A DNA stretch of 64,000 nucleotides from the NCBI RefSeq assembly GCF_000970285.1, contig NZ_CP009516.1, forward strand, positions 1,095,036 through 1,159,035, written 5' to 3'. The first letter of the stretch is position 1, and each line of letters opens with the position of its first letter. A program made the translations under genes and the position numbers. The notes under the pieces are model-generated. The model ran no database searches, was not told where the DNA came from, and worked only from the letters and a program-made list of their open reading frames with translations. The DNA comes from Methanosarcina horonobensis HB-1 = JCM 15518. Its GTDB lineage: Archaea; Halobacteriota; Methanosarcinia; Methanosarcinales; Methanosarcinaceae. Positions 48,531-62,645 of this stretch are shown piece by piece.

Positions 48531-50006
48531 GTGGATATGGAAGAATGGGAACAGCGCCACACGGAAGCGTTTTACGATGCAAAAGAAGCCCTTCCTTATC
48601 TGGATGGGATGTTTGTTGCTTATAACAGCAATATCGATGCAATCAGACACCTGACAGAAAAAGACATGATAAAGCTTGTCGGGCTCTTCGATGAGGCTGA
48701 AATTCAGAATAGGGTTGCAGTGTATCCCAGGGAAATTACCGAGCCTGTGGATTTCGTTGCCCGCCTGTTGATTTCCATGCGTGAAGGGAAAGCTGCAGAA
48801 GTGCCTGCATATACCGAAGATATCCATAAGTGGCTGAAGGAACACCTGGGTTTTGACTACGCGCTTATGGGCGGTCAGGCAGGAATTATTTCAAACCTTC
48901 TTGCCCGGTTAGACCTGAAAAAGGTGGTAGCTTACGTTCCCTGGCTTTCTGAAGAGCAGGCAGAATACTTTGTAGATAACGGCAATATCCTCCACCCGAG
49001 AGTAGAAAACGGACAGGTTACCCTCAAACCTCCGGCAGAGGCTTTCAAGCCCGGGACAGGGTCAAAGGTCAACTGGATATTTGAATTTTCTAAAGACATG
49101 AAAGTGACCTGCGCAGGGAGCACCTTCAAAGTACCCAGGGACAACCGCCTGATTATCTCTTCCCGTCCTAAATGGATCCGCCTGGATATGGACAGAGAGA
49201 TTTATGAGCAGCTTTATGCTCTCTTTCCTGTTGACGGGGCAATGCTTTCCGGTTATCAGATGATAAAAGAAGAGTACGAGGATGGATCCACCTATAAAGA
49301 TTATGTAGAACGTTCTGTAAAGGTTATTGAAAAGCTGAAGTCTCTGAACCCTGAACTTCGCATCCATGTGGAACTCACATCCATCCAGAACCGGCTTATA
49401 AGAAAGACCATTCTGACAGACATTGTTGCAAGGCACGTTCATTCCCTGGGCCTGGACACCGTGGAAGTGGCAAATGCCTTGAACGTGCTGGGATATGAGG
49501 AGCTTTCATACTCCGTGATCCGGAAGGGAGAAAACGGGATTATGTCTCTTTACCAGGGAGCTGTCCAGTTAATGAAGGATCTTAAACTTGAAAGGGTTCA
49601 TGTGCACTCGCTTGGTTTTTATATCTGCATTCTGGCAAAAGGTCACCCTCTCACCCTGAAAGAACACAGGGATGCCCTTCTCTTTTCCTCGGTTCTGGCA
49701 GCTGCCCAGGCTCTCAACGGGAAAATCGAGAACCTTACTGAAGCCGAAGCCGGTCTGGAAGTACCTGTCTCAGCTGCAGGGTTAGAAGATCTGGAAAATT
49801 TCCAGTTATACTGCACAGGCAGAAAACTCTGCACTCCGGATGAATTCGAGTACGGATACATATACGGGCCAGACCATGATGCTATTCTCATCCCTTCCAA
49901 GGTGGTGGACAGACCAAAAGCTACAGTAGGGATAGGTGATACCATTTCTGCAGGAGCTTTTGCTGCCATGCTCGCAAGGATGAAACAAAAACAGGCAGGG
50001 AAATAA
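48531..50006 (+). CDS. pfkC: ADP-dependent phosphofructokinase/glucokinase
   Basis: A 491-residue ribokinase-fold enzyme that phosphorylates fructose-6-phosphate or glucose with ADP as donor. FVAYNSNIDAIRHL near the start, GGQAGIISNLLARL, GYQMIKEEYEDGSTYKDYVE and the closing GIGDTISAGAF (catalytic base D470) define the family. The start is GTG behind GGGGG. It is full-length and probably the main glycolytic/glycogen-degrading enzyme. A second family member follows after 48 bases. Confidence 0.93.
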   Translation: MDMEEWEQRHTEAFYDAKEALPYLDGMFVAYNSNIDAIRHLTEKDMIKLVGLFDEAEIQNRVAVYPREITEPVDFVARLLISMREGKAAEVPAYTEDIHKWLKEHLGFDYALMGGQAGIISNLLARLDLKKVVAYVPWLSEEQAEYFVDNGNILHPRVENGQVTLKPPAEAFKPGTGSKVNWIFEFSKDMKVTCAGSTFKVPRDNRLIISSRPKWIRLDMDREIYEQLYALFPVDGAMLSGYQMIKEEYEDGSTYKDYVERSVKVIEKLKSLNPELRIHVELTSIQNRLIRKTILTDIVARHVHSLGLDTVEVANALNVLGYEELSYSVIRKGENGIMSLYQGAVQLMKDLKLERVHVHSLGFYICILAKGHPLTLKEHRDALLFSSVLAAAQALNGKIENLTEAEAGLEVPVSAAGLEDLENFQLYCTGRKLCTPDEFEYGYIYGPDHDAILIPSKVVDRPKATVGIGDTISAGAFAAMLARMKQKQAGK

Positions 50007-50054
50007 GTTATTCGAAAATCGAAAATAAGTTGTCTGAATACAGGAACCGGTCAG

Positions 50055-51545
50055 ATGAACATACTTTGCGGTTATAATGTAAACATAGACTCCGTATACA
50101 GGATAAGCGGAGCTGAAATCTCTGAACTGCTGATGGCTTTTGAAAGGACTGAAATTCTTGAAAAGATAAGAAACCCTCCCGGTAAAATTCTTTCCGCATC
50201 CGATTTTGTTGCAGGGCTCGCCTACTGTATGAAAAATGGGTGTGGAGCCGAATGGCTTGTCTTTGAGAAGTCTGTCTTTGAGTTTTTGAAGAACCGCTAC
50301 TTTCAAAAGTCTCTTGTGAGGATGGGTGGAAACGCCGGGATTATGGCAAATGCCCTTTCCGAAATCGGAGCAAGAGTGGTTCCTAATGTTGCGGTTCCTT
50401 CAAAAACCCAGCTTTCTTTATTTTCAAAAAAAGCAGTATATTTCCCGGATGCTCCTCTGCAGATAGAGGAAGAGCCGGAAAAGGAAAAGCTGAAAACAGA
50501 ATCTGGGAAAAACACATACGATAAGTATAACACACGTAATACACATGCTTCTTTTAGCAGTCAGGACCCAATACATTTCGTTTTTGATTTTTCCGAAGGT
50601 GAAACCTTTTCCCTTTACGGGACAGAAATCAGGGTTCCCAGAGAAAACCGCTTTATAGCGACCTGTGACCACTTAAATTTCAGGCTTTTTACCAGTTCCG
50701 CATTTGAGGACTATGCCCTGAAGCACGCAGAAGAAATGGACGGAGCACTAATATCAGGCTTTCACCTCCTTCTTGAGATCTATCCTGACGGTAGCACCTA
50801 CAAAGAAATCCTTGAGAATTCTTTTTCACAGCTTAAGGCCTGGAAGGCAAAGAACAAAAGGCTCAGAATTCATGTTGAGTTCGGGCACTTCGCGAGCAGA
50901 GAGATTGCAAATTCAGTCTTTTCAAAATTTGCCGGAATTTCAGGTAGCATCGGAATGAACGAAGATGAACTTTCAATGTTTAATAACCTTCACGGAGTTC
51001 CTGCTAAAGGGCTTTCGAATATGGAAGCCGAAGCTGTAGGGAGAGCAGCCTGCAAACTTGCATCCCTTCATGGGCTTGGAACACTTTTTATCCACACAAG
51101 AGAGTTTGTCCTGGCTGTTTTTAAGCCGGATACCGAAAACTCTGATGAATCGGAGATTTCAGAAAACTGGGTCAAAGGAAAATGGGATAATAAAGAAAAC
51201 CCGGTTATTTTAAAAGCAGCCAGGAAAAAGCTTGATGCGATAGGTTTCGGACTAAAGTGTGCAGGAGCGTATGCGGCTTCAGGCAGGCTCGAAGGGCGTG
51301 AATTCGTGGAAAAAGAGGCTTTAAAACTTGAGGAGAGCAGGTTTGGCAGGGAGCAGCTGGAGTTCTTCCTGACAGCTTTCAACGGAACCACCTGCGGACA
51401 GGGTGCTTTTGCCTTAATAGAAGGCTACATGCTTTGCATCCTGCCCACACTGCTCTGCAAATCTCCGATAACAACTGTGGGACTCGGGGATACGTTAACT
51501 GCAGGAACTTTTTTGAGGGGGCTTGAACTGGATGTACAGGCTTGA
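50055..51545 (+). CDS. ADP-dependent sugar kinase family protein, divergent paralogue
   Basis: A 496-residue protein homologous to the gene before it: CGYNVNIDSVYRISG, VRMGGNAGIMANALSEIGAR, VPRENRFIATCDHLNFRLF, GFHLLLEIYPDGSTYKEILE and GLGDTLTAGTF with the catalytic aspartate (D479). It differs by Lys/Glu-rich insertions at about 135-165 and 355-385, and its substrate loop near the N-terminus is different. Retention of the catalytic motif argues for an active enzyme with another substrate. Its last 14 bases overlap the glycosylase gene that follows. Confidence 0.88.
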   Translation: MNILCGYNVNIDSVYRISGAEISELLMAFERTEILEKIRNPPGKILSASDFVAGLAYCMKNGCGAEWLVFEKSVFEFLKNRYFQKSLVRMGGNAGIMANALSEIGARVVPNVAVPSKTQLSLFSKKAVYFPDAPLQIEEEPEKEKLKTESGKNTYDKYNTRNTHASFSSQDPIHFVFDFSEGETFSLYGTEIRVPRENRFIATCDHLNFRLFTSSAFEDYALKHAEEMDGALISGFHLLLEIYPDGSTYKEILENSFSQLKAWKAKNKRLRIHVEFGHFASREIANSVFSKFAGISGSIGMNEDELSMFNNLHGVPAKGLSNMEAEAVGRAACKLASLHGLGTLFIHTREFVLAVFKPDTENSDESEISENWVKGKWDNKENPVILKAARKKLDAIGFGLKCAGAYAASGRLEGREFVEKEALKLEESRFGREQLEFFLTAFNGTTCGQGAFALIEGYMLCILPTLLCKSPITTVGLGDTLTAGTFLRGLELDVQA

Positions 51546-52380
51546 ACCCGAACTTTTTGACCTTAACTACACCCTTGACTGCGGGCAGGTGTTCCGATGG
51601 GAAAGGGATGGAGACTGGTGGACAGGAGTTGTAGGAGAGAATGTTGTTCGGCTTTTGCAGGAAAAGGAAAGTGGAAGTCTGCTGGTCGACTCGGAACTCT
51701 CACCCGAGTTTTTCTCTCATTACTTTCGCCTTGACGATAACCTTCCTTCAATTTATGAGAGCATCAACAGAGACCTTTTGATTGACAGGGCAATAAATAG
51801 ATATAGAGGCCTTCGTCTAATCCGGCAGGATCCCTGGGAGTGCCTGATTTCTTATATGCTTGCAACGGCTTCAAGCATTCCTACAATCCAGAAAAGGATT
51901 TTTCTTCTGAGCCGTTTTTTCGGACAGGAACTCGAAGACGGATATTTCAGCTTTCCGAATCCTGAAACTCTTGCAAACGCGGATCTGTCTCTGCTTGACA
52001 GGTGTAAGCTCGGTTTCAGGGCAGAACGCATAAAAACAGCAGCAGAAGAAGTATGTTCCGGAGAACTGGACTTTGATGCTCTTTTCCGCCTTGAGTACAG
52101 ATATGCCAGGGAACGCCTTATGAGACTTCGCGGAATAGGAGAAAAAGTTGCTGACTGCGTCCTCCTTTTTGCCTTTGAGAAAATGGAATCTTTCCCGGTG
52201 GATACCCACATAAGGCAAATTATTCAGCATTACCACATTGATGACAGTTTTTTTGAAACTTGTACAAACCTGAGCTGTATGGGAGAATGGGGTCGGGAAT
52301 ACTTCGGACACTACTGCGGGTATGCCCAGGAGTATCTTTATTACCAGAAAAGAATTGAAGGGTTTGTTTCCCTTTACTAA
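51532..52380 (+). CDS. ogg: 8-oxoguanine DNA glycosylase (helix-hairpin-helix GPD)
   Basis: A 282-residue OGG1-like DNA repair enzyme. The N-terminal domain has FDLNYTLDCGQVFRWER, as in eukaryotic OGG1. The HhH-GPD part has RLRGIGEKVADCVLLFAF with the catalytic lysine (K205 from this start) and the aspartate D224 in FPVDTHI. The ATG at 51532 lies inside the end of the kinase gene; a TTG three codons earlier is possible. Two broken copies of its 3' half lie downstream (54385 and 55575), as products of a local duplication. Confidence 0.93.
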   Translation: MYRLEPELFDLNYTLDCGQVFRWERDGDWWTGVVGENVVRLLQEKESGSLLVDSELSPEFFSHYFRLDDNLPSIYESINRDLLIDRAINRYRGLRLIRQDPWECLISYMLATASSIPTIQKRIFLLSRFFGQELEDGYFSFPNPETLANADLSLLDRCKLGFRAERIKTAAEEVCSGELDFDALFRLEYRYARERLMRLRGIGEKVADCVLLFAFEKMESFPVDTHIRQIIQHYHIDDSFFETCTNLSCMGEWGREYFGHYCGYAQEYLYYQKRIEGFVSLY

Positions 52381-52836
52381 CTTCTCTCTTTTGTCAAAAT
52401 TAGAATTGAAAAATTAGGGTTGAAAAATTAGAATTAAAAGCTGGAATTTATTTTATTCAACAACCGCAGATTCTGCCTATAGAGAGTGTATGAAACTTTT
52501 TAAGGCATACTTTCTTCAAGTGCTTTAAATTTGAGAGCAAGATTTTCAATATAAGCAATAACTTAGGATTTTGGAGCTTATAGAACAATAATCCCTTCAC
52601 ATTTCATAAAAATTAATTCATTTTATACTCAATTTTCCTTACTCTGAAGAGAAATTGTGGAGCCTTAACAAAGCTACCTGAATAGCTACTTTGTAATTAA
52701 AAAAACTAGAAAAATAAAAAAACCCCCAAAACTTGAGACTTTTTCGAGCTCTTCTGGGGCTATCAAAGTTGCAACTTTTTCCTTATCCGCGGCTGTAATT
52801 AATCAAAAATTCGGGAAATTAATTAAATCACCTTTG
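52381..52836. other. Spacer with bidirectional terminator between ogg and the first secreted-protein gene
   Basis: A/T-rich with GAAAAATTAG repeats near 52405-52440. At 52716-52744 an A-run, CCCCCAAAACTTGAGA and T-run form the degenerate counterpart of the neat hairpins found at 54824 and 55983. Confidence 0.5.
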
Positions 52837-53487
52837 TTACCAGCGTCTGTCGCGGTGGTCGTCATCCCAGTCGTCGTCGCAATCGTCATCATCCCAATCG
52901 TCGTGGTCTCTCCAACTGCGGTGGTCGTCATCCCAGTCGTCATCCCAGTCGTCGTCATCCCAGTCGTCGTCATCCCAATCGTCGTGGCCTCTCCATTTGT
53001 GTTCGTGGTCTCTCCCTTTGCGGTCACAGTCTCTCCATTTGTGGTTGTCGTCATCCCACCATTTGTCGTCGTTATCCCACCAGCAGTTTCCATCCCATTT
53101 CCAGTTATTGTTGACATCCCACCAGCAGTTTCCATCCCATTTCCAGTTATTTCCGGAGAACCACCAGTTGTTTCCATCCCATCTACAGTTATTGTCAACG
53201 TCACACCAGTTGCTTCCATCCCATGTTAAGTCATTGAATGAGCAATCACCTGGGCAAAAGTCTGGACCGCAAGAATCTGGGAAGCAATTGCCTAGAAGAC
53301 CATCGTCTAGAAGACCATTGCCCAGACCGCAATCGTCTAGAAGACCATTGTCCAGACCGCAATCGTCTAGACCGCAAGGGTCTGAATCACACGCTGATGC
53401 TGACACTGCTGTCAGTGTTGCCACAAAAAAGACTGTCAGCAAAATAGCCACAACCTTTTTCATCCTGTTAAGTATTTGTTTTCCCAT
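52837..53487 (-). CDS. Secreted Trp/Asp-rich repeat protein (family member A)
   Basis: A 216-residue protein. A signal peptide (MKKVVAILLTVFFVATLTAV, then SASA) precedes a mature chain of extreme composition. First come GLDDCGLDNGLLDDCGL repeats (about 38-70), then 16-residue repeats of the form NNWKWDGNCWWDV (about 90-145), then an Asp/Trp/His/Arg-rich tail of HDDWDDDDWDDDW repeats (to 216). The Asp/His clusters look able to bind metal ions and the Trp repeats suggest an adhesive or wall material. No known family fits. The signal peptide and upstream leader are shared with members B and C. Confidence 0.75.
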   Translation of the reverse strand: MGKQILNRMKKVVAILLTVFFVATLTAVSASACDSDPCGLDDCGLDNGLLDDCGLGNGLLDDGLLGNCFPDSCGPDFCPGDCSFNDLTWDGSNWCDVDNNCRWDGNNWWFSGNNWKWDGNCWWDVNNNWKWDGNCWWDNDDKWWDDDNHKWRDCDRKGRDHEHKWRGHDDWDDDDWDDDDWDDDWDDDHRSWRDHDDWDDDDCDDDWDDDHRDRRW

Positions 53488-53550
53488 AAATTTTTATCCC
53501 CACATTATTTCTATTTTTTAATTATTCTACGTTTGATACAATATCAGACA

Positions 53551-53670
53551 TGTCAATTTTTCAATCCACTTCCTGTCGATGTATAGTTCGCTTACTAGAG
53601 ATCACTTTTACCAATCAATTATGTAAACCCATTTCTAAAATAGGATTGGTAAACTCAATCTTCGTAATCT
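53551..53670 (-). promoter_or_regulatory. Conserved leader, copy A
   Basis: Begins TGTCAATTTTTCAATCCACT, as do copies B (55314) and C (56459). It contains the inverted repeat TACCAATC (53609-53616)/GATTGGTA (53644-53651). It lies 60-185 bases upstream of the member A start. Confidence 0.65.
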
Positions 53671-54186
53671 ATGTCGATGAAAGAGATCTCAAAATCCACA
53701 GAAAATAAATTATGTCCAAAATATATAATAGTTAGAGAAATATAAGTAAGGAATCATAATATATAATAAAAGCAGATTCTATTACGTCTCCATCATATGT
53801 ATCTTTTCAATATAGGGACTTATAAATACTCACGTGGGTAGTTATAAGAAGCATATCTCAACAATGTATTATCTATGGGTTTAAGAAGACTTTAGCGGAT
53901 ATACAATGTATATGTCTCCAAGAAAATCGTTTAAGCAATTGTGAATTTCGATTACCATACTATATTATAACAGGATATCCGAAATGAGTCAAGACCCATA
54001 TCTTAACATTCCCATCCAATTATCTGGACACAAGTAATGAGATGAACGATTGACTTCACGGTCGAATATATAAAGGCGGACTGGGGAGTGAATATTTTGA
54101 TTAGAAAAAAGGTGCAGGTGATTACAGTACATTTTAAGATGAAATACCATCCTGCTAGCTGGGTACGGCATATACTCAAAGTAAAT
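53671..54186. repeat. Duplicated spacer, copy 1 (matches 56581-57086)
   Basis: From about 53835 (CACGTGGGTAGTTATA) to the end, this aligns base by base with 56735-57086, including CCATATCTTAACATTCCCAT and GGTGCAGGTGATTACAGTAC. No gene is visible; it is the spacer that precedes the cca tail in both places. Confidence 0.8.
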
Positions 54187-54384
54187 TTACATCTATTTCC
54201 TCAAAAAAAGCCCTGAAATTCGGGTCTTTTAGCCTGCAAATTTCTGCATCTTCAAGAACCTCAAAGCCTTACTCACTCCCTGATATACCTGTTTTCCAAG
54301 GGGGGGTTCACAAGCTGCTCTTCAAGAAGGTCTTCGCCGTGGGAGGGTGCCGGCGATAAATTCAGGCATGATTAAGGTCTCGGG
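54187..54384 (-). pseudogene. Fragment of the cca gene 3' end
   Basis: Starts with the same TTA stop and matches the last roughly 50 codons of the intact gene at 57087-58451 (for example TGCATCTTCAAGAACCTCAA). It then jumps, through an internal deletion of roughly 150 bases, to the part encoding the strand near MLELISGTLP. It ends where the ogg fragment begins. Confidence 0.8.
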
Positions 54385-54799
54385 ATTAGTAAACTCCGGT
54401 ACCTTTGCAGAAGCCGGTCTTTCCCTGCTTGACAAATGTAAACTCGGCTTCCAAACCGAACACATAAAAGCAGCAGCCGGAGAAATGACTGCAGGCGAAC
54501 TTGACCTTAATGTCCTCTACCATCTTGAATACAGATATACCAGGGAACGCCTTATGCGGCTCCGCAGCATAGGGGAAAAATTTGCTGACTTCGTCCTCCT
54601 TTTCGCCTTTGAGAAAATGGAGTCTTTCCCGGTAGATACCCACGTAAGGCGGATCATCCAGTATTACCATATCGATGACAGCGGCTTTGAAACCTGCACA
54701 AACCTCGGCTGTGTGGGAGAATGGGGGCGGGAATATTTCGGATATTACTGCGGATGCCCAGGAGTACTTTTATTATCAGAAATCATAATTAATCTGTGA
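54385..54799 (+). pseudogene. Duplicated 3' half of ogg, copy 2
   Basis: Encodes LSLLDKCKLGFQTEHIKAAA through RLRSIGEKFADFVLLFAFEK and FPVDTHVRRIIQYYHIDDS to GREYFGYYCGCPG, i.e. the ogg C-terminal domain with catalytic Lys and Asp kept, but frameshifted just before the end. The frame is open back to an ATG at 54347, though those codons come from the cca fragment. Without the N-terminal domain it should not be a working glycosylase. Confidence 0.85.
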
Positions 54800-54823
54800 T
54801 TAACAATAAAAGCTGAAAAAAAT

Positions 54824-54849
54824 AAAAAGCCTCAAATTTGAGACTTTTT
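54824..54849. terminator. Bidirectional terminator, copy 2
   Basis: AAAAAG-C-CTCAAATTTGAG-A-CTTTTT forms a near-perfect foldback with an A-run on one side and a T-run on the other, serving both the ogg side and the convergent secreted-protein gene. Confidence 0.75.
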
Positions 54850-55013
54850 AAGATTTATGTGGGACTCTCAAATATATGGGACTATCAAAGTTTGAATTAC
54901 TTTCCTCACTCAGGGCTGTAATCAAAAATTCGGGAACTTAATTAAAGCCCCCTTAACTTATTAAAGCCCCTTGAAACTTAGAAAGCCCTTTATTCTCAAA
55001 TCATCTGCAGTGG

Positions 55014-55259
55014 TTACCACCAGCGACCAAAGCCGCCACATCCTCTTCTAAATCCATCAAAGAAGGGGAAGCCACCGCAGCCGCCGAAGCCACCGCAGCC
55101 GCCGAAGCCACAGCTAGAGAAGCTACTAAAGCACTTGCCACCAAATCCGCAACCGCCGCAACTGCCGCAACCGTCCCATGCTGATGCTGACTCTACTGTT
55201 AATGTTCCTACTAAAAGGATTGCCAGTAAGACAGTCACAATCTTTTTTATTTCTACCAT
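55014..55259 (-). CDS. Secreted Gly/Cys-rich protein (family member B)
   Basis: An 81-residue protein, starting at the ATG at 55259 behind GGAGAG (an ATG at 55274 is in frame). The signal peptide IKKIVTVLLAILLVGTLTV-ESASA is nearly that of members A and C. The mature part starts WDGCGSCGGCGFGG and is made of CGGFGG-type repeats with about ten cysteines, ending CGGFGRWW. Such Gly/Cys repeats suggest a crosslinked or metal-binding extracellular peptide. No family is known to me. Confidence 0.7.
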   Translation of the reverse strand: MVEIKKIVTVLLAILLVGTLTVESASAWDGCGSCGGCGFGGKCFSSFSSCGFGGCGGFGGCGGFPFFDGFRRGCGGFGRWW

Positions 55260-55313
55260 ATACTTTCTCTCCATATTATTTTGGTTTCAATAATCGTTTT
55301 AATTTATTAGGCG

Positions 55314-55440
55314 TGTCAATTTTTCAATCCACTTCCTTCAGACATATACATTTGCTTACTGAAGATTATTTTTTACCAATCAGTTATGTAAACTCGTTTT
55401 TGAGATGAAATTAGTAAATTCAATCTTCCTAATGTATGCC
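55314..55440 (-). promoter_or_regulatory. Conserved leader, copy B
   Basis: Matches copies A and C from TGTCAATTTTTCAATCCACT through TACCAATCAGTTATGTAAAC. It also has CTTCAG/CTGAAG flanking ACATATACATTTGCTTA. The following 55441-55574 holds AT-rich spacer up to the ogg fragment. Confidence 0.6.
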
Positions 55441-55574
55441 GGATGGAATGAATATAAAATTGGACAGATTATATAATTATGCCTTTATATTTAAAAACTA
55501 GAGAATTATAATTACGAATTTTATATTTTTCATATGAATTGATATTATTCAGTCTTTCCCCTGTATATTTTTTC

Positions 55575-55860
55575 AATGCATCCCGACAATACGGAAAAGG
55601 ATCTGCCTCCAGAGCCGTTTTTTTCGGGCAGGAACTCTAAGACGGATACTTCAGCTTTGAGAAAATGGAGTCTTTCCCGGTAGATATCCACATAAAGAAG
55701 ATCAACCAGCATTTCCATATCGATGACAGTTTCTTTAAAACCTGCACAAACCTGAGCTGTATGGGAGAATGGGGACAGGAATATTTCGGAAACTACTGCG
55801 GGTGCCTGGGAGTACCTCTATTATCAGAAAAGGGTTGAGGTTTTTGTTCCGCTTTACTAA
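55575..55860 (+). pseudogene. Duplicated, internally deleted 3' part of ogg, copy 3
   Basis: Matches ogg from the GAAAAGGAT...GAGCCGTTTTTT region, jumps over about 190 bases, then follows the last third (TTTCCCGGTAGATATCCACA, GGGAGAATGGGG) to the same GCTTTACTAA end. The frame is broken by indels and by loss of the helix-hairpin-helix motif. Confidence 0.85.
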
Positions 55861-55982
55861 TCCCTTTTTTTGTTGAAGTCACAGTTGAAAATTAGAATTA
55901 ATAAGTTTCAATTGAAAATTAGAATTAATTATAGATAGCAAACGTAACTAATTTGTAATTATCAATAAAAACTGAAATAAAT

Positions 55983-56008
55983 AAAAAGCCTCAAACCTGA
56001 GACTTTTT
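55983..56008. terminator. Bidirectional terminator, copy 3
   Basis: AAAAAG-C-CTCAAACCTGAG-A-CTTTTT, the same foldback as at 54824 with a different loop; both arms of the stem are preserved. Confidence 0.75.
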
Positions 56009-56173
56009 AAGATTTATGTGGGATTCTCAAATATATAAGACTATCAAAGTTTGAATTACTTTCCTCACTCTGGGCTGTAATCAAAAATTCTGGAACTTAA
56101 TTAAAGCCCTTTGAAACTTAATAAAGCCTTGAAACTTAATAAAGCCTTTTTTTCTCATCATCTTCAGTAGTTA

Positions 56174-56404
56174 TCACCAGCGACATCTAAAACGGTCCCA
56201 GCATCTTCCTCCATCCCACCAGTTGCCTCCATGCCATTTCCAGCTGTCGAATCCCCCGAAATGTCCACGCCATTTCCAGCTGTCGAATCCGCAACCATCG
56301 CAACCGCGACCGTCCCATGCTGATACTGACCCTGCTGTTACTGTTCCCACTAAAAGGATTGCCATTAAGACAGTCACAATCTTTTTTATAGATATTTCTA
56401 CCAT
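56174..56404 (-). CDS. Secreted Trp/Gly-rich protein (family member C)
   Basis: A 76-residue protein starting at the ATG at 56404 behind GGGGAG. Signal peptide IKKIVTVLMAILLVGTVTA-GSVSA, then WDGRGCDGCGFDSWKWRG and HFGGFDSWKWHGGNWWDGG. The repeat GFDSWKWxG links it to the Trp repeats of member A, while GCDGCG links it to member B, so it bridges the three. It ends CWDRFRCRW. Probably extracellular; function unknown. Confidence 0.7.
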   Translation of the reverse strand: MVEISIKKIVTVLMAILLVGTVTAGSVSAWDGRGCDGCGFDSWKWRGHFGGFDSWKWHGGNWWDGGRCWDRFRCRW

Positions 56405-56458
56405 ATACTTTCTCCCCATATTATTTGATTTTAATATATCGTTTTAATATGTCAGGCA

Positions 56459-56580
56459 TGTCAATTTTTCAATCCACTTCCTCCAGACATATACATCTGC
56501 TTATTGAAGATTATTCTACCAATGGTCATCAAAACTTGTTTCTGAGATGAAACTGGTAAATTTAATCTTCCTGATGTATA
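56459..56580 (-). promoter_or_regulatory. Conserved leader, copy C
   Basis: Third copy of the leader, with TGTCAATTTTTCAATCCACT and, further in, TACCA...TGGTA still able to pair although flanking bases have changed. Confidence 0.6.
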
Positions 56581-57086
56581 CCGATGGAAGAGATCTAAAA
56601 TTGGACATAAAAGAGATTTATATCCTTATATTTAATATCTATAGAATTATAAATACGAACCTAATATTTTACATAAATTGATACTATTCAGTCTTTCCCC
56701 TGCATCCTTTTTCAACTTCAGGACTGCAATTCCACGTGGGTAGTTATAATATCCACATCTCAAAAATGTATTAATGCCCGGGTTTCCGAAGACCTGAGTG
56801 GATATATAAAGTACAGGTTCTTTAGAAAGTTGTTCAAGTAACTATGAAGTTCAATTGTAACGTCATGTTTTAATAGGGCATACAAAATAAATCAAAATCC
56901 ATATCTTAACGTTCCCATCCAATTATCTGGAAAGTAATGAGAGAAATACTTGACTTCATGGTCGACAAATCAAAAATGGACTGAGGACTGGAGTGTTTTG
57001 ATTGGAAATAGGTGCAGGTGATTACAGTACATTTTAAGATGAAGTATCACTCTGCAATTGAATATGGCATTATATTCAAAGTAAAT
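56581..57086. repeat. Duplicated spacer, copy 2 (matches 53671-54186)
   Basis: The part from 56735 (CACGTGGGTAGTTATA) to 57086 aligns with the spacer before the cca fragment. A CAGTCTTTCCCCTG word near 56690 also occurs at 55550. No gene is visible. Confidence 0.75.
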
Positions 57087-58451
57087 TTACACCCATTTCC
57101 TCAAAAAAACCCTGAAATCCGGATCTTTTAGTCTGCAAATCTCTGTATCTTCAAGAACCTCAAAGCCTTTACTCACGTTCTGATGTACCTGTTTTCCAAG
57201 GGAGGAGTTTAGAAGCTGATCTTCAAGGAGGCCTTTTGCCGTAGGGTATTTGCGCCGGATTTCAAAGACGTACTTTCCTCCTTCGATATAGCCTCCGAAA
57301 ACATTTTCAGCCCCTTCGTACTTGGCTTTGAACTTCTCAGCATGCTCCCTGGCCCATACCGGAGGGCCAATTCTTTTTTTGACATTGGGAAGGGTGCCTG
57401 AGATAAGTTCGAGCATGATTACGGTTTCGGTTTTCCCTGACCAGACGCCGGTTTTGACAACTGAAAAATCGTACTCGCTCAGGAGGGATGCTGCAGCCTG
57501 TTCCATTTTATAAAGCTGCGGATAGAGCACGTCGTCCACAACATCAGGGGTTTCGAAGATAACTGCAAGCTGTGAGCTTTTCCGGCTTTCCAGCTTTTCA
57601 AGAAATTCTTCATCCTCGAGGGGCAGGGGGCAGGCAGGGAAAAAGAATTTAATTTCCGGGCTTTTCAGAAACTCCCGGCAGTGGTCTATAAACATGCAGA
57701 ATTTGTCAAGGGAAAGGGCTGCTGCAACATTCCGCCTGGGGTCGGTTGGGTCTACCATTACCAGAGGCTCATTGTGTTCCAGTTCCGAGTGCTGCATGAT
57801 GTCTATTTTCTGCCCGGGTTTCCAGGAAGAGGCTGCTTTCACGGTTTTTTCGAAAGAGCCGTGGTAAATAATAAGGAGCTCTGTCAGGTAGCCTGAAAAG
57901 CCCTGTGTTTTTAATTCCGAGCCGTAGACCTCGCCTCCGCGCATGAACTGCTTCATAAGCAGAACCTCTTCTTCCCGCCCTTTTATGTGGGTTTTTACGA
58001 ATTCGTTATGGAAAGGTGTCCTGTCCACTGCGGACTTGAGCTGGCATGCCGAAGCGACCCTGAAGCAGGGGACAAGGTCAACATCAAAACCTCTGTAGAT
58101 AATATTCAGGTAAGGATGTTCAGCATGGCGATCTTCGGCATATTCCGCTTGTTTTGCAACTTCTCTGGCAATCTCCATACCCCTGGTTTCCAGTTCCTTT
58201 CTGGATGTTTCCTCTGGAAAGCTGATAAAAACATCAATGTCATGGGTGCCTGAGAGCCAGGTGCCTCTTGCAGCAGAACCTACCATTTTTACAAATATAT
58301 CTGGTACACAAAGTTTCTCTGCTGCCGCTTTTACCTCTGCGGCAAGCTCTTCCTGAACAGCCATTAGTTTTTTCCTTTCGGCTTCCGTGGGTTTAATCTT
58401 TTTAAGCACGGCAAGCTTCAGGTCTTCTGGAATACTGGTATATGTTTCCAT
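57087..58451 (-). CDS. cca: CCA-adding enzyme (archaeal class I tRNA nucleotidyltransferase)
   Basis: A 454-residue enzyme adding CCA to tRNA 3' ends. The class I polymerase-beta motif GSAARGTWLSGTHDIDVFI has the metal-binding aspartates D71 and D73. The third carboxylate region YRGFDVDLVPCF and the GFSGYLTELLIIYHGSF segment are also typical. The C-terminal tail and body domains run through GPPVWAREHAEKFKAKY to the FRVFLRKWV end. Its 3' end is the source of the fragment at 54187-54384. Confidence 0.95.
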   Translation of the reverse strand: METYTSIPEDLKLAVLKKIKPTEAERKKLMAVQEELAAEVKAAAEKLCVPDIFVKMVGSAARGTWLSGTHDIDVFISFPEETSRKELETRGMEIAREVAKQAEYAEDRHAEHPYLNIIYRGFDVDLVPCFRVASACQLKSAVDRTPFHNEFVKTHIKGREEEVLLMKQFMRGGEVYGSELKTQGFSGYLTELLIIYHGSFEKTVKAASSWKPGQKIDIMQHSELEHNEPLVMVDPTDPRRNVAAALSLDKFCMFIDHCREFLKSPEIKFFFPACPLPLEDEEFLEKLESRKSSQLAVIFETPDVVDDVLYPQLYKMEQAAASLLSEYDFSVVKTGVWSGKTETVIMLELISGTLPNVKKRIGPPVWAREHAEKFKAKYEGAENVFGGYIEGGKYVFEIRRKYPTAKGLLEDQLLNSSLGKQVHQNVSKGFEVLEDTEICRLKDPDFRVFLRKWV

Positions 58452-58942
58452 GCCCTGGACGGCTCCACATGTTCTTTTTTGGTTCTGAAGGTCAATTTTT
58501 ATCCTGAAGATTGACTCTTCATCCTTGGATTAGTAATAGTTCTGAGTTAGTAATGATTCTAAGGCTAACTGTTGATACAGTTAGTTTGCGATTGGATAAT
58601 TTGTAATTTTACAGGTCAGAAACCTCTCTTTTAACTTATAATTTGTGGATCTTCAGGTAGAATTTCAAAATAAATCTATTTTCCCGATCAGGAACTGAGG
58701 ATTCTCTTGTGAAGGGATGATCCCTGGATTCCATAAGTATTCTCCAGAGACTCCGGAGTTAAGAAAATATGAACACTTTAAATAAAATGAACAGCATTTC
58801 TATTTCCCGAATCTGGCAGTTTTACTGATTTACTTTCTATTTAATTTACAACTTACTTCAAATCGGCTTGTTTCAGGTCTTATCGATCTGCTTCAAGCCT
58901 CATCGGTCCATCCAAACCCTATAATAACCCGGTTGTGAAAAA
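58452..58942. other. Divergent intergenic region, no gene seen
   Basis: AT-rich, with TAGTAATAGTTCTGAGTTAG/TAGTAATGATTCTAAGGCTA direct repeat near 58530-58570 and CAGGTCTTATCGATCTGCTT/CAAGCCTCATCGGTCCATCC similarity near 58874-58912. Confidence 0.4.
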
Positions 58943-59662
58943 ATGCTTGTCTGGATTTATTGGATTGTCACTCTAACAATCGCTACCTATGCATCCGTAT
59001 ACGTTATTAAAAAAATGCCGGAAAACGGTTTTACAGTGCTCACTGCTTTTTATGTCGTTTACCTTGTAGCTTCACAGGTTCTTGCCACACGCATTATTGT
59101 GTTTGACCTTGGCTTTTACTCCTTTTTTGCTCCGGCGGCAGTTTTCATCTACCCTTTTATTGCTCAGGTGGTGGATATGATCAACGAAGTCTATGGGGAG
59201 AAAAGGACGCATATCTCCATCCTCATCGCTTTTGCGACCCAGGTATTGTTCGTGCTCTTCATAGGTATGGTCGCGGGTCTCACTCCTGCCCCTTTCTTTG
59301 AACTGGAAGATGCCTGGAAGAGCCTTTTTGGGCTGAGCATCAGAATCACTATCGCAAGCTGGGTCTCTTTTCTGATCTGCTCGAACCTTGATGCCTGGAT
59401 CTTTGCATCCCTTAAAAAACATTTTTCACAAAGGGAGGAGAACTTCAAGCACGATACCCTGATAAACCCTTACATCTGGCTGCGCTCAGGAGCAAGCGAC
59501 ATTGTTAACCTTACTCTGGACTCTCTGATCTTTGTCTTCATTGCCTTTTACGGAGTTATGCCTGTCCTCCCTCTGGTTATAGGGCAGCTTATCAGTAAGA
59601 ATATCATCGGTTTTCTGGATAATCCCTGGTTTGTGTTCTACAAAAAACTGCTTACAAAATAA
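58943..59662 (+). CDS. Queuosine-precursor-type transporter (YhhQ/VUT family)
   Basis: A 239-residue membrane protein with about six helices. The family signature is the pair FIYPFIAQVVDMINEVYGEK and a later LRSGASDIVNLTLDSLIFVF, with GQLISKNIIGFLDNPW at the end. Bacterial YhhQ imports 7-deazaguanine precursors of queuosine; in an archaeon the same bases feed archaeosine in tRNA, so import of preQ0 is a sensible guess. Single gene. Confidence 0.88.
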   Translation: MLVWIYWIVTLTIATYASVYVIKKMPENGFTVLTAFYVVYLVASQVLATRIIVFDLGFYSFFAPAAVFIYPFIAQVVDMINEVYGEKRTHISILIAFATQVLFVLFIGMVAGLTPAPFFELEDAWKSLFGLSIRITIASWVSFLICSNLDAWIFASLKKHFSQREENFKHDTLINPYIWLRSGASDIVNLTLDSLIFVFIAFYGVMPVLPLVIGQLISKNIIGFLDNPWFVFYKKLLTK

Positions 59663-60038: not shown

Positions 60039-62645
60039 TTGGGGACTAAAAAATATCTAAAAATGCTATGTCTGTTTTTATTGCTCGGATTGCTGTGCGA
60101 AACCGCAGTTGCTCAGGTTTCAGGTTCCGCAGGCAACCGCATCTGGGACGCAAACTTAAGCCAGAACTTTACCTATACCTGGACGCCCCAGACATACTCG
60201 GGCTTTTACTATGACCTGGATACCGGGGAAGGTTCGGAGAATATGACGATCCAGCTCACTGAGGGCAGCCGTAGTGTCCAGAGAAACGGACTGCAGTATG
60301 AAACAAGGCCCATAGAAACGGAATTCGAATATGGGAACTGGGGTTCGTATCAGGTTATAGGGTTTATGGCAGAGCGGTATTTTGCGGGATACACGGAAAA
60401 CTCCAGCTTTATAAATGACGATATCAGCGTAATTTCGGATGGACAGCTTTCGAAAATACTTATTGATAGCGACGACCGGAGATCCATGTACACGGGCTCT
60501 TCCCTTATACTTGAAGAAGGTTATTCTCTCAACATTGTAGAAGTCGATGTTAATGGTAACACGGTATGGGTACAGCTCGAAAAGGACGGAGATGTGATAG
60601 ACAACGGTTTCCTTTCTTCCAACAGCGACTATGTTTATGAGGCCGACCTTGGAGACGCTGATGACGTACCTCTGATCGCTGTCCATTTAGCTCAGATCTT
60701 CAGGGGCACAGAAACAAATGCAGTTTTTGTAGAGGGAATATTCCAGATCTCGGACGAGTACGTCCAGATTGAAAATGGAGATAGATTCGGGAAAATGGAG
60801 ATAAGTTCTACTTCAAGTTCCGGAATTACAATGAGAAACCGTGATTCTTTTACCCTTGGCAGGGGAGACACGGTCAACATAATGGGAAAACTCAGCTTTG
60901 TTGTGGCCGATGCCAGCGAACTCCGCTTTGCTCCCATTGTTGAGACTACCGAGCCCGGAACCTATGAACTGAGGGGAACGGTCCATGACGAAACGTTTAA
61001 TACTACTGTCTGGACGCCTTACAACTTTGAAGGGTTCTATTACAATATCGATGAAAACGTCTCCACTGAGAGCCTGACCATTACAGAAGGAATCAGCGGA
61101 AGGACGATTGGTGACGAAAAGCTTGTTTATTCCACCAGCCCCGCACTTGTGAGTTTCGAGCGGGAAAGCTGGGGAAGCTATGAAGTAATAGGGTTCATGG
61201 CAGAGAAGTATTTTGCAGGCTATCCCGCGAACACTTTTGGTAATTCCAGAAGCGTGAGTATACTTTCAGATGACATCCTATCAAAAGTCCTGATTGATGA
61301 CGATAACAGAAGGTCTATATTCACGGGTTCTTCCATAGCTCTTGAAAACGGTTACTCTCTCAAAGCCGCAGAGGTTGATGTTAACGGTAACAGTGTACTC
61401 CTCGAGCTTTACAAGGATGGAAGACTTGTGGATTCCGGAATAGTTTCCAGCAACAGGGACTATGTCTACGAAGCAGATATCGGTGGGGCTGAAGATATTC
61501 CCATGATCGCAGTCCACATAAGCACAGTCTTCCGCTCACGTGAAACGGATGCTGTATTTATAGAAGGAATCTTCCAGATCTCAGATGAATATCTTGAGCT
61601 TTCCCAGGGTGACTCTTTCGGCAAGATGGAAATTAGCTCTATTTCCGACTCCGGAATCATAATGAGAAATGAGGACTCTATTTCCCTTTCAAGGGGCAAT
61701 ACCGTCAACCTGATGGGCAATGTTAAGTTCAAAGTGGCTGATTCGTCTGTCCTGCGCTTTTATCCCTTTGTTGAAGTTGAAAGTGCTGCACAGGATCAGC
61801 TGGAATTTGAAACTCCAAATGTCTTCGTGGTCGGACAGGCAGCAGAAATCCTGGTTACGGCAAGAGATGCTGCAGTCAGTGACGTCCAAATCATGCTTGG
61901 AAACAGAAGTATCGGAACCACAGGCAATGATGGGATTCTCACATACACTCCAGGTCAGGAAGGCAGATTTACCCTTTCTGCGAACAAGACGGGTTACAAC
62001 TCCGGAAGTAAGACAGTGGATGTCCTCGCAGCAGGTGTTCTCAAGCTGCTGGTCTCAGTTTCTCCTGAAGACATCAGAGAAGGCGACCAGATCACTATAA
62101 GGGTCGCTGATTCTGCACAGAACCAGCCTGTCTCCGGAGCAGATGTCTTCTTTGGCGGACAGAAAGTTGAAGGACAGACCGGTACAAACGGCACTGTATC
62201 TTACTGGGTAACTGCTCCAGGCACATTTACTGTAAACGCTACAAAAGCAGGTTATGAGGAAGGAGAAACCATTGTTGAGGTTTCCGAAGATAGAGCCAGC
62301 TTTGAGTTCTCGGACCTTTTGATTGAGCCTGCTTCTGTTAGAAGTGGAAATGCAGTTACAATTGAGGTGAATGTGACAAACACCGGCAACATTGCAGGAG
62401 AAACCGAAGTTGAACTGCTTATCAACGGTGAACCCGTAGATAACGAAACTGTGAGCTTGGGCGTTGGTGAGAGTAGGGTAGTGGAATTCTCCCATACCGA
62501 GGAAGAAGCAGGGACATACACGGTTGAGATCGAAGATCTTAGCGGAAGTTACGAAGTAACGAAATCCACTCCTTTCCTCAGCAGCACTGTAACCATCGGA
62601 ATACTTGCTACAGCGTTTATACTGCTCAGGAGAAGAAAGAACTAA
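60039..62645 (+). CDS. S-layer protein with two duplication domains, Ig-like and CARDB domains
   Basis: An 868-residue envelope protein starting at TTG behind GGAGG. After the signal peptide (ending near AVAQVSG) come two tandem S-layer duplication domains (about 30-305 and 315-590), each with YGNWGSYQVIGFMAERYFAG- or ESWGSYEVIGFMAEKYFAG-type cores and EGIFQISDEY. Two Ig-like units follow (about 600-675 and 678-755; both have an SGxD/VxD...GTTGNDG or GTNGT turn). A CARDB-type domain (about 760-840) and a C-terminal helix with RRRKN complete it. The arrangement matches the Methanosarcina S-layer lattice protein with added stalk domains. It is longer than the simple two-domain form. Confidence 0.92.
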   Translation: MGTKKYLKMLCLFLLLGLLCETAVAQVSGSAGNRIWDANLSQNFTYTWTPQTYSGFYYDLDTGEGSENMTIQLTEGSRSVQRNGLQYETRPIETEFEYGNWGSYQVIGFMAERYFAGYTENSSFINDDISVISDGQLSKILIDSDDRRSMYTGSSLILEEGYSLNIVEVDVNGNTVWVQLEKDGDVIDNGFLSSNSDYVYEADLGDADDVPLIAVHLAQIFRGTETNAVFVEGIFQISDEYVQIENGDRFGKMEISSTSSSGITMRNRDSFTLGRGDTVNIMGKLSFVVADASELRFAPIVETTEPGTYELRGTVHDETFNTTVWTPYNFEGFYYNIDENVSTESLTITEGISGRTIGDEKLVYSTSPALVSFERESWGSYEVIGFMAEKYFAGYPANTFGNSRSVSILSDDILSKVLIDDDNRRSIFTGSSIALENGYSLKAAEVDVNGNSVLLELYKDGRLVDSGIVSSNRDYVYEADIGGAEDIPMIAVHISTVFRSRETDAVFIEGIFQISDEYLELSQGDSFGKMEISSISDSGIIMRNEDSISLSRGNTVNLMGNVKFKVADSSVLRFYPFVEVESAAQDQLEFETPNVFVVGQAAEILVTARDAAVSDVQIMLGNRSIGTTGNDGILTYTPGQEGRFTLSANKTGYNSGSKTVDVLAAGVLKLLVSVSPEDIREGDQITIRVADSAQNQPVSGADVFFGGQKVEGQTGTNGTVSYWVTAPGTFTVNATKAGYEEGETIVEVSEDRASFEFSDLLIEPASVRSGNAVTIEVNVTNTGNIAGETEVELLINGEPVDNETVSLGVGESRVVEFSHTEEEAGTYTVEIEDLSGSYEVTKSTPFLSSTVTIGILATAFILLRRRKN

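Follow-up and report, generated by a model that had tools for sequence, protein, structure and literature searches.

Between the genes for an 8-oxoguanine DNA glycosylase (ogg) and a CCA-adding enzyme (cca), the genome of Methanosarcina horonobensis HB-1 carries an array of three collinear direct-repeat units, each with a gene for a secreted protein (sec1, sec2 and sec3) and a folded leader upstream of it. The array lies in the 64,000-nt stretch analysed here (the window), which is part of a single-contig genome of 5,018,607 bp. Our analysis suggests that it probably arose at a spot of gene exchange common to the whole genus, through two old tandem duplications, one after the other, and that the sec gene was multiplied together with its leader as a cassette. 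The original prediction, made from the letters of this stretch, had described a segmental amplification favoured by selection for more copies of the secreted protein. The amplification of a secreted-gene unit is confirmed, but selection for copy number, as it was stated, is not.

Repeat units and decayed flanks

Self-BLAST of window positions 51000-59000 recovered the three units predicted in 51532-58451 as direct repeats with E-values down to 1e-171, which excludes chance repeats. As predicted from the sequence, open reading frames (ORFs) and Pfam domains show a single whole ogg, the first, and a single whole cca, the last (Table 1), and the array between them contains two dead ogg fragments and one dead cca-tail fragment. 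Unit 1 consists of the whole ogg, sec1, its leader and the dead cca tail; unit 2 of ogg fragment 2, sec2 and its leader; and unit 3 of ogg fragment 3 in two pieces, sec3 and its leader, followed by the whole cca. A cca tail thus stands after units 1 and 3, as had been claimed. Positions 51960-52350 of ogg are repeated at 54395-54782 (80%), 51870-51959 at 55572-55663 (83%) and 52173-52466 at 55655-55944 (78%), the segment from 51960 to about 52170 (whole-ogg coordinates) being deleted inside fragment 3. The secreted gene and leader of unit 1 are repeated in unit 3 (53349-54343 and 56281-57245, 73% over 1006 nt, cca tail included) and in unit 2 (53387-53811 and 55174-55577, 69%), and units 2 and 3 match each other at 54778-55576 and 55937-56715 (79% over 814 nt). 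Of the terminators that had been placed in every unit, a hairpin scan detected only those of units 2 and 3; that of unit 1 is degenerate.

The ogg fragments are pseudogenes. At columns invariant in 22 intact Methanosarcina ogg genes, 17 changes were counted in fragment 2 and 18 in fragment 3, all of them at codon positions 1 and 2, whereas the intact genes show 0-4 such changes each. All three sec frames are open, so that the contrast drawn earlier between readable secreted frames and decaying ogg and cca pieces holds. Both ogg fragments share a 2-nt deletion, which indicates that units 2 and 3 descend from one pseudogene ancestor, and in the head region (signal peptide plus leader) these two units are 84% alike and form a sister clade with 100/100 support. 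Taken together, the sister relationship and the common deletion are best explained by two old tandem duplications. Unit 1 differs from unit 3 by about 28-32%, much as it differs from the related gene of another Methanosarcina genome, G007 (22-35%), which argues for the age of the duplications; a recent amplification was rejected because the copies differ by 16-32%.

The ancestral order would have been a forward ogg followed by sec, leader and cca on the opposite strand, the complete arrangement still found in genome G015. The whole unit may then have been duplicated when an illegitimate exchange linked a site in ogg with a site in cca, leaving a cca tail joined to an ogg tail near 54387-54395. 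A further duplication of the second unit, extending from within ogg as far as the distal leader, would have produced units 2 and 3. The whole ogg and cca were kept and the internal copies decayed, as the changes described above show.

Table 1. Features of the array and their positions in the window.
Feature	Position	Strand	Evidence
ogg, whole 8-oxoguanine DNA glycosylase, left hotspot edge	51532..52380	+	Pfam OGG_N 1e-20, HhH-GPD 5e-7; orthologue in 21 relatives
sec1, secreted, 216 aa, signal peptide MGKQILNRMKKVVAILLTVFFVATLTAVSASA, WDG-type repeats (42-nt period)	52837..53487	-	signal-peptide profile E 3.5e-21
unit 1 structured leader, every helix kept	53520..53713	-	R1 39.3 bits (window-free model), R2 110.1 bits
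cca 3'-end fragment, dead, joins ogg fragment 2	54204..54387	-	74% to whole cca, frameshifted, ~145-nt internal deletion
ogg fragment 2, dead, without N-terminal domain	54395..54782	+	self-BLAST, ogg comparison
unit 2 palindromic terminator-like hairpin	54823..54850	.	hairpin scan
sec2, secreted, Gly/Cys-rich, 81 aa from homologous start	55014..55259	-	ORF-finder start 55274
unit 2 structured leader, closing helix without 3' strand	55295..55472	-	R1 32.1 bits, R2 77.3 bits
ogg fragment 3, dead, two pieces around internal deletion	55572..55860	+	self-BLAST, ogg comparison
unit 3 palindromic terminator-like hairpin	55982..56009	.	hairpin scan
sec3, secreted, Trp/Gly-rich, 76 aa from homologous start	56174..56404	-	ORF-finder start 56419
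unit 3 structured leader, closing helix without 3' strand	56440..56621	-	R1 29.6 bits, R2 77.3 bits
cca, whole CCA-adding enzyme, right hotspot edge	57087..58451	-	Pfam tRNA_NucTransf2 4e-44, CAA_C 4e-42; in 31/31 Methanosarcina

The leader and the family of secreted proteins

The leader shared by the units, already part of the original prediction, is a covarying element of about 190 nt upstream of all three sec genes, and it directly precedes the genes of a dispersed family of secreted proteins. Four blocks recur in the upstream regions of this family, at about -244 (TATA-like), -177, -75 and -35, well in excess of shuffled controls. The folding z-score of these regions averages -1.95, as compared with an average of -0.56 in the window's other upstream regions (p = 6e-4). 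A consensus fold computed from 23 sequences aligned with MAFFT contained no pairs, because that alignment was poor. A covariance model (R1) built from an eight-locus seed, all outside the window, matched exactly the three sec leaders in the 64 kb and nothing else, as did the refined model R2, which includes these three leaders as rows. In a 22-row alignment, 27 of the 45 pairs changed on both sides, a value reached by none of 500 shuffles, and 84.9% of the leader cells were paired as against 33-41% after sliding the partner; this alignment was fitted to the structure, and both figures are somewhat inflated. The covariation provides strong support for a conserved folded structure. The leader would act as RNA, and the excess of G-U over A-C, taken as a sign of the RNA strand, was no more than base composition gives. 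No Rfam family came near its gathering score, and the element is thus previously uncatalogued.

The R2 leader is present in 28 of the 31 Methanosarcina genomes and in none of 81 other Methanosarcinaceae. There are 47 matches, 25 of them with a listed family start, and in all 25 the leader ends 14-48 nt before it. The signal-peptide profile detects the family signal after the leader in 25 of 30 fetched loci, a 26th is recognized by its coordinates, and three of the remaining four are short stretches near a contig end. This profile (A1), of which sec1 is a row and sec2 and sec3 are not, matches 30 of the 31 Methanosarcina genomes at 1-84 places per genome (15 in the source genome) and gives one marginal match in each of 6 of the 81 other Methanosarcinaceae. 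In the whole-genome search, sec2 and sec3 were matched with E-values of 5.1e-7 and 4.0e-6. Two related genomes show an extreme expansion of the family (84 matches in G017, 33 in G016), with many very short open frames.

Family members average 51% identity in their first 33 residues and 14% in their bodies, and the median score of body pairs equals that of shuffled bodies. The bodies consist of WDG, CKTC, W-K-E or GY repeats, Gly-rich sequence or acidic Pro/Thr repeats, and two others read as PKD-like and cupin-like. A single-linkage clustering of the bodies was set aside as unreliable for low-complexity sequence. None of the three window proteins has a Pfam match. The starts of sec2 and sec3 are probably the second ATG (55259 and 56404) instead of the longer ORF-finder starts, because what precedes this ATG can be aligned with the sequence in front of sec1. 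In sec2 the body has turned into Gly/Cys-rich sequence, so that the array is not simply more of the same protein. Elsewhere, at locus L204 (G000:C1:2307828-2307905, minus strand), a family-like signal peptide (E 5e-6) precedes an enzyme-like body that reads as a truncated haemoglobin and differs from the low-complexity bodies of the family.

Each sec gene is probably a self-contained cassette of promoter, folded leader, ribosome-binding site, signal peptide and low-complexity body. The covariation of the leader is observed; its transcription is predicted. The proteins are most likely Sec-exported components of the envelope or matrix, and the most likely role of the leader is to govern mRNA stability or translation jointly for the family. 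It is tempting to go further and to suggest, as a possibility that we consider somewhat doubtful, that a portable 'secretion head' of about 350 bp (promoter, leader RNA with its covariation, and a single signal peptide) is copied again and again and fused to new low-complexity bodies, producing genus-specific, commonly regulated envelope proteins. The ogg-cca array would then be one such unit caught multiplying.

The ogg-cca junction as a cargo hotspot

All 31 Methanosarcina genomes contain cca, and in the relatives with ogg and cca both on the fetched stretch the two genes bound the interval in an unchanged order; in G030 they are 2 Mb apart. The interval is empty in G010, G022, G027 and G029, with 42-132 bp between ogg and cca, and measures about 1-13 kb elsewhere. 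Its cargo, as identified with hidden Markov models, includes a HEAT-repeat protein in G020 (Pfam 2.5e-72), a Lamassu defence system in G013 (LmuA 2e-94, LmuB 6e-169, LmuC 4e-53), a DUF2254 protein in G006, and a block of S-layer protein, glycosyltransferase and LPG-synthase-TM genes in G005. From their translations, HEAT-like proteins can be read in G001, G003, G011, G012, G018, G023, G026 and G030, Lamassu-like genes in G014, a restriction-modification-like operon in G002 and DUF1016-like genes in G026, G028 and G030. A secreted WDG gene occurs as a single copy next to ogg in G015 and G005 and next to cca in G007. Its frame is open at all three loci, in agreement with the expectation that relatives would keep it intact.

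A broken cca 3' end is found in nine other genomes, near the whole cca or, in G030, near ogg. These tails look like traces of the changes that the spot has undergone and not just like passengers. The original prediction held that the flanking genes were copied along passively; the pieces have indeed decayed, but at a genus-wide hotspot with tails in nine other genomes their passivity is not obvious. The varied cargo and the recurrent tails identify the ogg-cca junction as a genus-wide cargo hotspot at which partial cca copies have arisen repeatedly. No recombinase was seen in the ogg-cca interval of the window, and we found no literature on this hotspot or on the Methanosarcina secreted family.

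In G013 (L114:13554-16944), LmuA, LmuC and LmuB lie between ogg and cca, and in G014 (L106) the same genes, apparently in part, are followed by a cca tail. In G002 (L115:3891-11862), an operon that reads like hsdM, DUF1016, hsdS and hsdR stands between ogg and a cca tail. The large HEAT-repeat proteins of G020 (L095:3035-6370) and of similar ORFs at the spot contain PDKQQAWNDL repeats and are of very unequal length; the G020 protein matches the PADLOC model HEAT_CxxC_PDDEXK. Around the window's array, two tandem ADP-dependent sugar kinase genes (ADP_PFK_GK, 27% identical) directly precede ogg at 48531-51545 and are conserved in relatives, and an S-layer protein gene (PF07752) lies nearby at 60039-62645, with related S-layer genes inside the ogg-cca interval of the G005-like clade.

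Alternative explanations and known systems

Not every observation fits two local duplications equally well. The order of the steps and their breakpoints are deduced from one genome; the head of unit 1 is closer to that of G007 (78%) than to those of units 2 and 3 (68-71%); and ogg fragment 2 is more similar to the ogg of G001 (85%) than to that of its own genome (80%), groups with G001 in the tree (83/94) and resembles it by site pattern in its first 130 nt. All of this weighs against our preferred history. The G001-like part of fragment 2 could be left by an accretion of alleles, in which imported sec DNA with foreign ogg and cca ends recombined beside the resident allele, the fragments being leftover homology arms. 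The unrelated cargo found at the spot in relatives, the cca tails of nine other genomes and the grouping of the G014 tail with the cca of another clade (95/83) would also be expected from such imports. However, the tails of G005 and G002 group with the cca of their own genome, the window's tail is nearest to the window's own cca (74.1%), and fragment 3 and the 3' part of fragment 2 carry states private to the ogg of the window or of its closest clade. Approximately unbiased (AU) tests on fragment 2 were not significant, and a placement within the window's own clade was not rejected (p-AU 0.13-0.23), so that an import from a G001-like source, hinted at by the tree and site patterns, cannot be taken as proven. 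Units 2 and 3, moreover, clearly arose from one another by local duplication. We regard allele accretion as unlikely. It is far less probable still that the leader is a mobile element resembling a miniature inverted-repeat transposable element (MITE) and no part of the gene. It is dispersed, measures about 190 nt and ends in inverted repeats (GATACAATT/AATTGTATC), but its near-fixed distance before the start codon of one family, the lack of any other copy in the 64-kb window and the covariation of its inner helices, unexpected for a dead insertion, led us to reject this reading; the loci examined gave no sign of leader copies at positions independent of the family.

The history by tandem duplication leaves aside what maintained the copies. 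Neutral duplication at a recombination-prone spot, with sec2 and sec3 slowly decaying and their number unselected, competes with the claim of selection alone and not with the duplications themselves. We consider it a serious possibility, if a little short of an even chance. In simulations with rates taken from the leaders, a frame would have stayed intact by chance in 24% of cases for sec2 and 23% for sec3, and selection for extra copies is thus not established. The leaders of units 2 and 3 have both lost the 3' strand of their closing helix, and the ratio of nonsynonymous to synonymous substitutions (dN/dS), 0.57 for sec2/sec3 alongside the rewritten sec2 body and 0.46 for sec1 and its G007 counterpart, is below 1 yet not low. 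On the other hand, sec2 and sec3 share 93% identity in their signal-peptide stretch as compared with 81.5% in the adjoining leader, the inner helices are kept in both leaders, and for sec1 neutral survival was only 0.2%. Purifying selection is therefore clear for sec1, the ancestral copy, alone. A dN/dS above 1, as in a positively selected toxin-like or antimicrobial-like family, was not found (whole-length Nei-Gojobori estimates, NG86, of 0.30-0.57 for the closest pairs). The extra copies could be of use, or their loss may simply not have happened yet.

Duplication is an ordinary process, here with unusual detail, and its importance lies in what was carried: a structured leader, absent from Rfam, of many secreted-protein genes in one genus, and proteins without a Pfam match. 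Should the leader control expression, it would offer a handle on cell-surface remodelling in methanogens, in a genus with working genetics, and the ogg-cca interval is a defined place to seek new archaeal defence genes.

The junction is reminiscent of the integration hotspots between core genes (Oliveira et al., 2017; PMC5635113), where one core-gene pair likewise surrounds an interval with a turnover of unrelated cargo; the present one is archaeal and small (0 to about 10 kb), with recurrent partial copies of the flanking cca. Like cDHS1 and cDHS2 of Pseudomonas aeruginosa (PMC10250203), it harbours defence cargo, namely Lamassu in G013 and similar genes in G014, but also genes for envelope and secreted proteins, the sec genes of the window included. 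According to PMC5378194 and work cited there, Methanosarcina mazei and Methanolobus psychrophilus have mRNAs with long 5' untranslated regions that are thought to act on stability or translation. In contrast to these, the leader is one conserved covarying element across a dispersed gene family. A conserved signal region before variable mature parts also recalls the antimicrobial peptides of frogs (PMC6245896). Unlike them, the Methanosarcina family is archaeal, its bodies are mostly of low complexity without a sign of positive selection, and its signal also precedes bodies that read as PKD-like and cupin-like.

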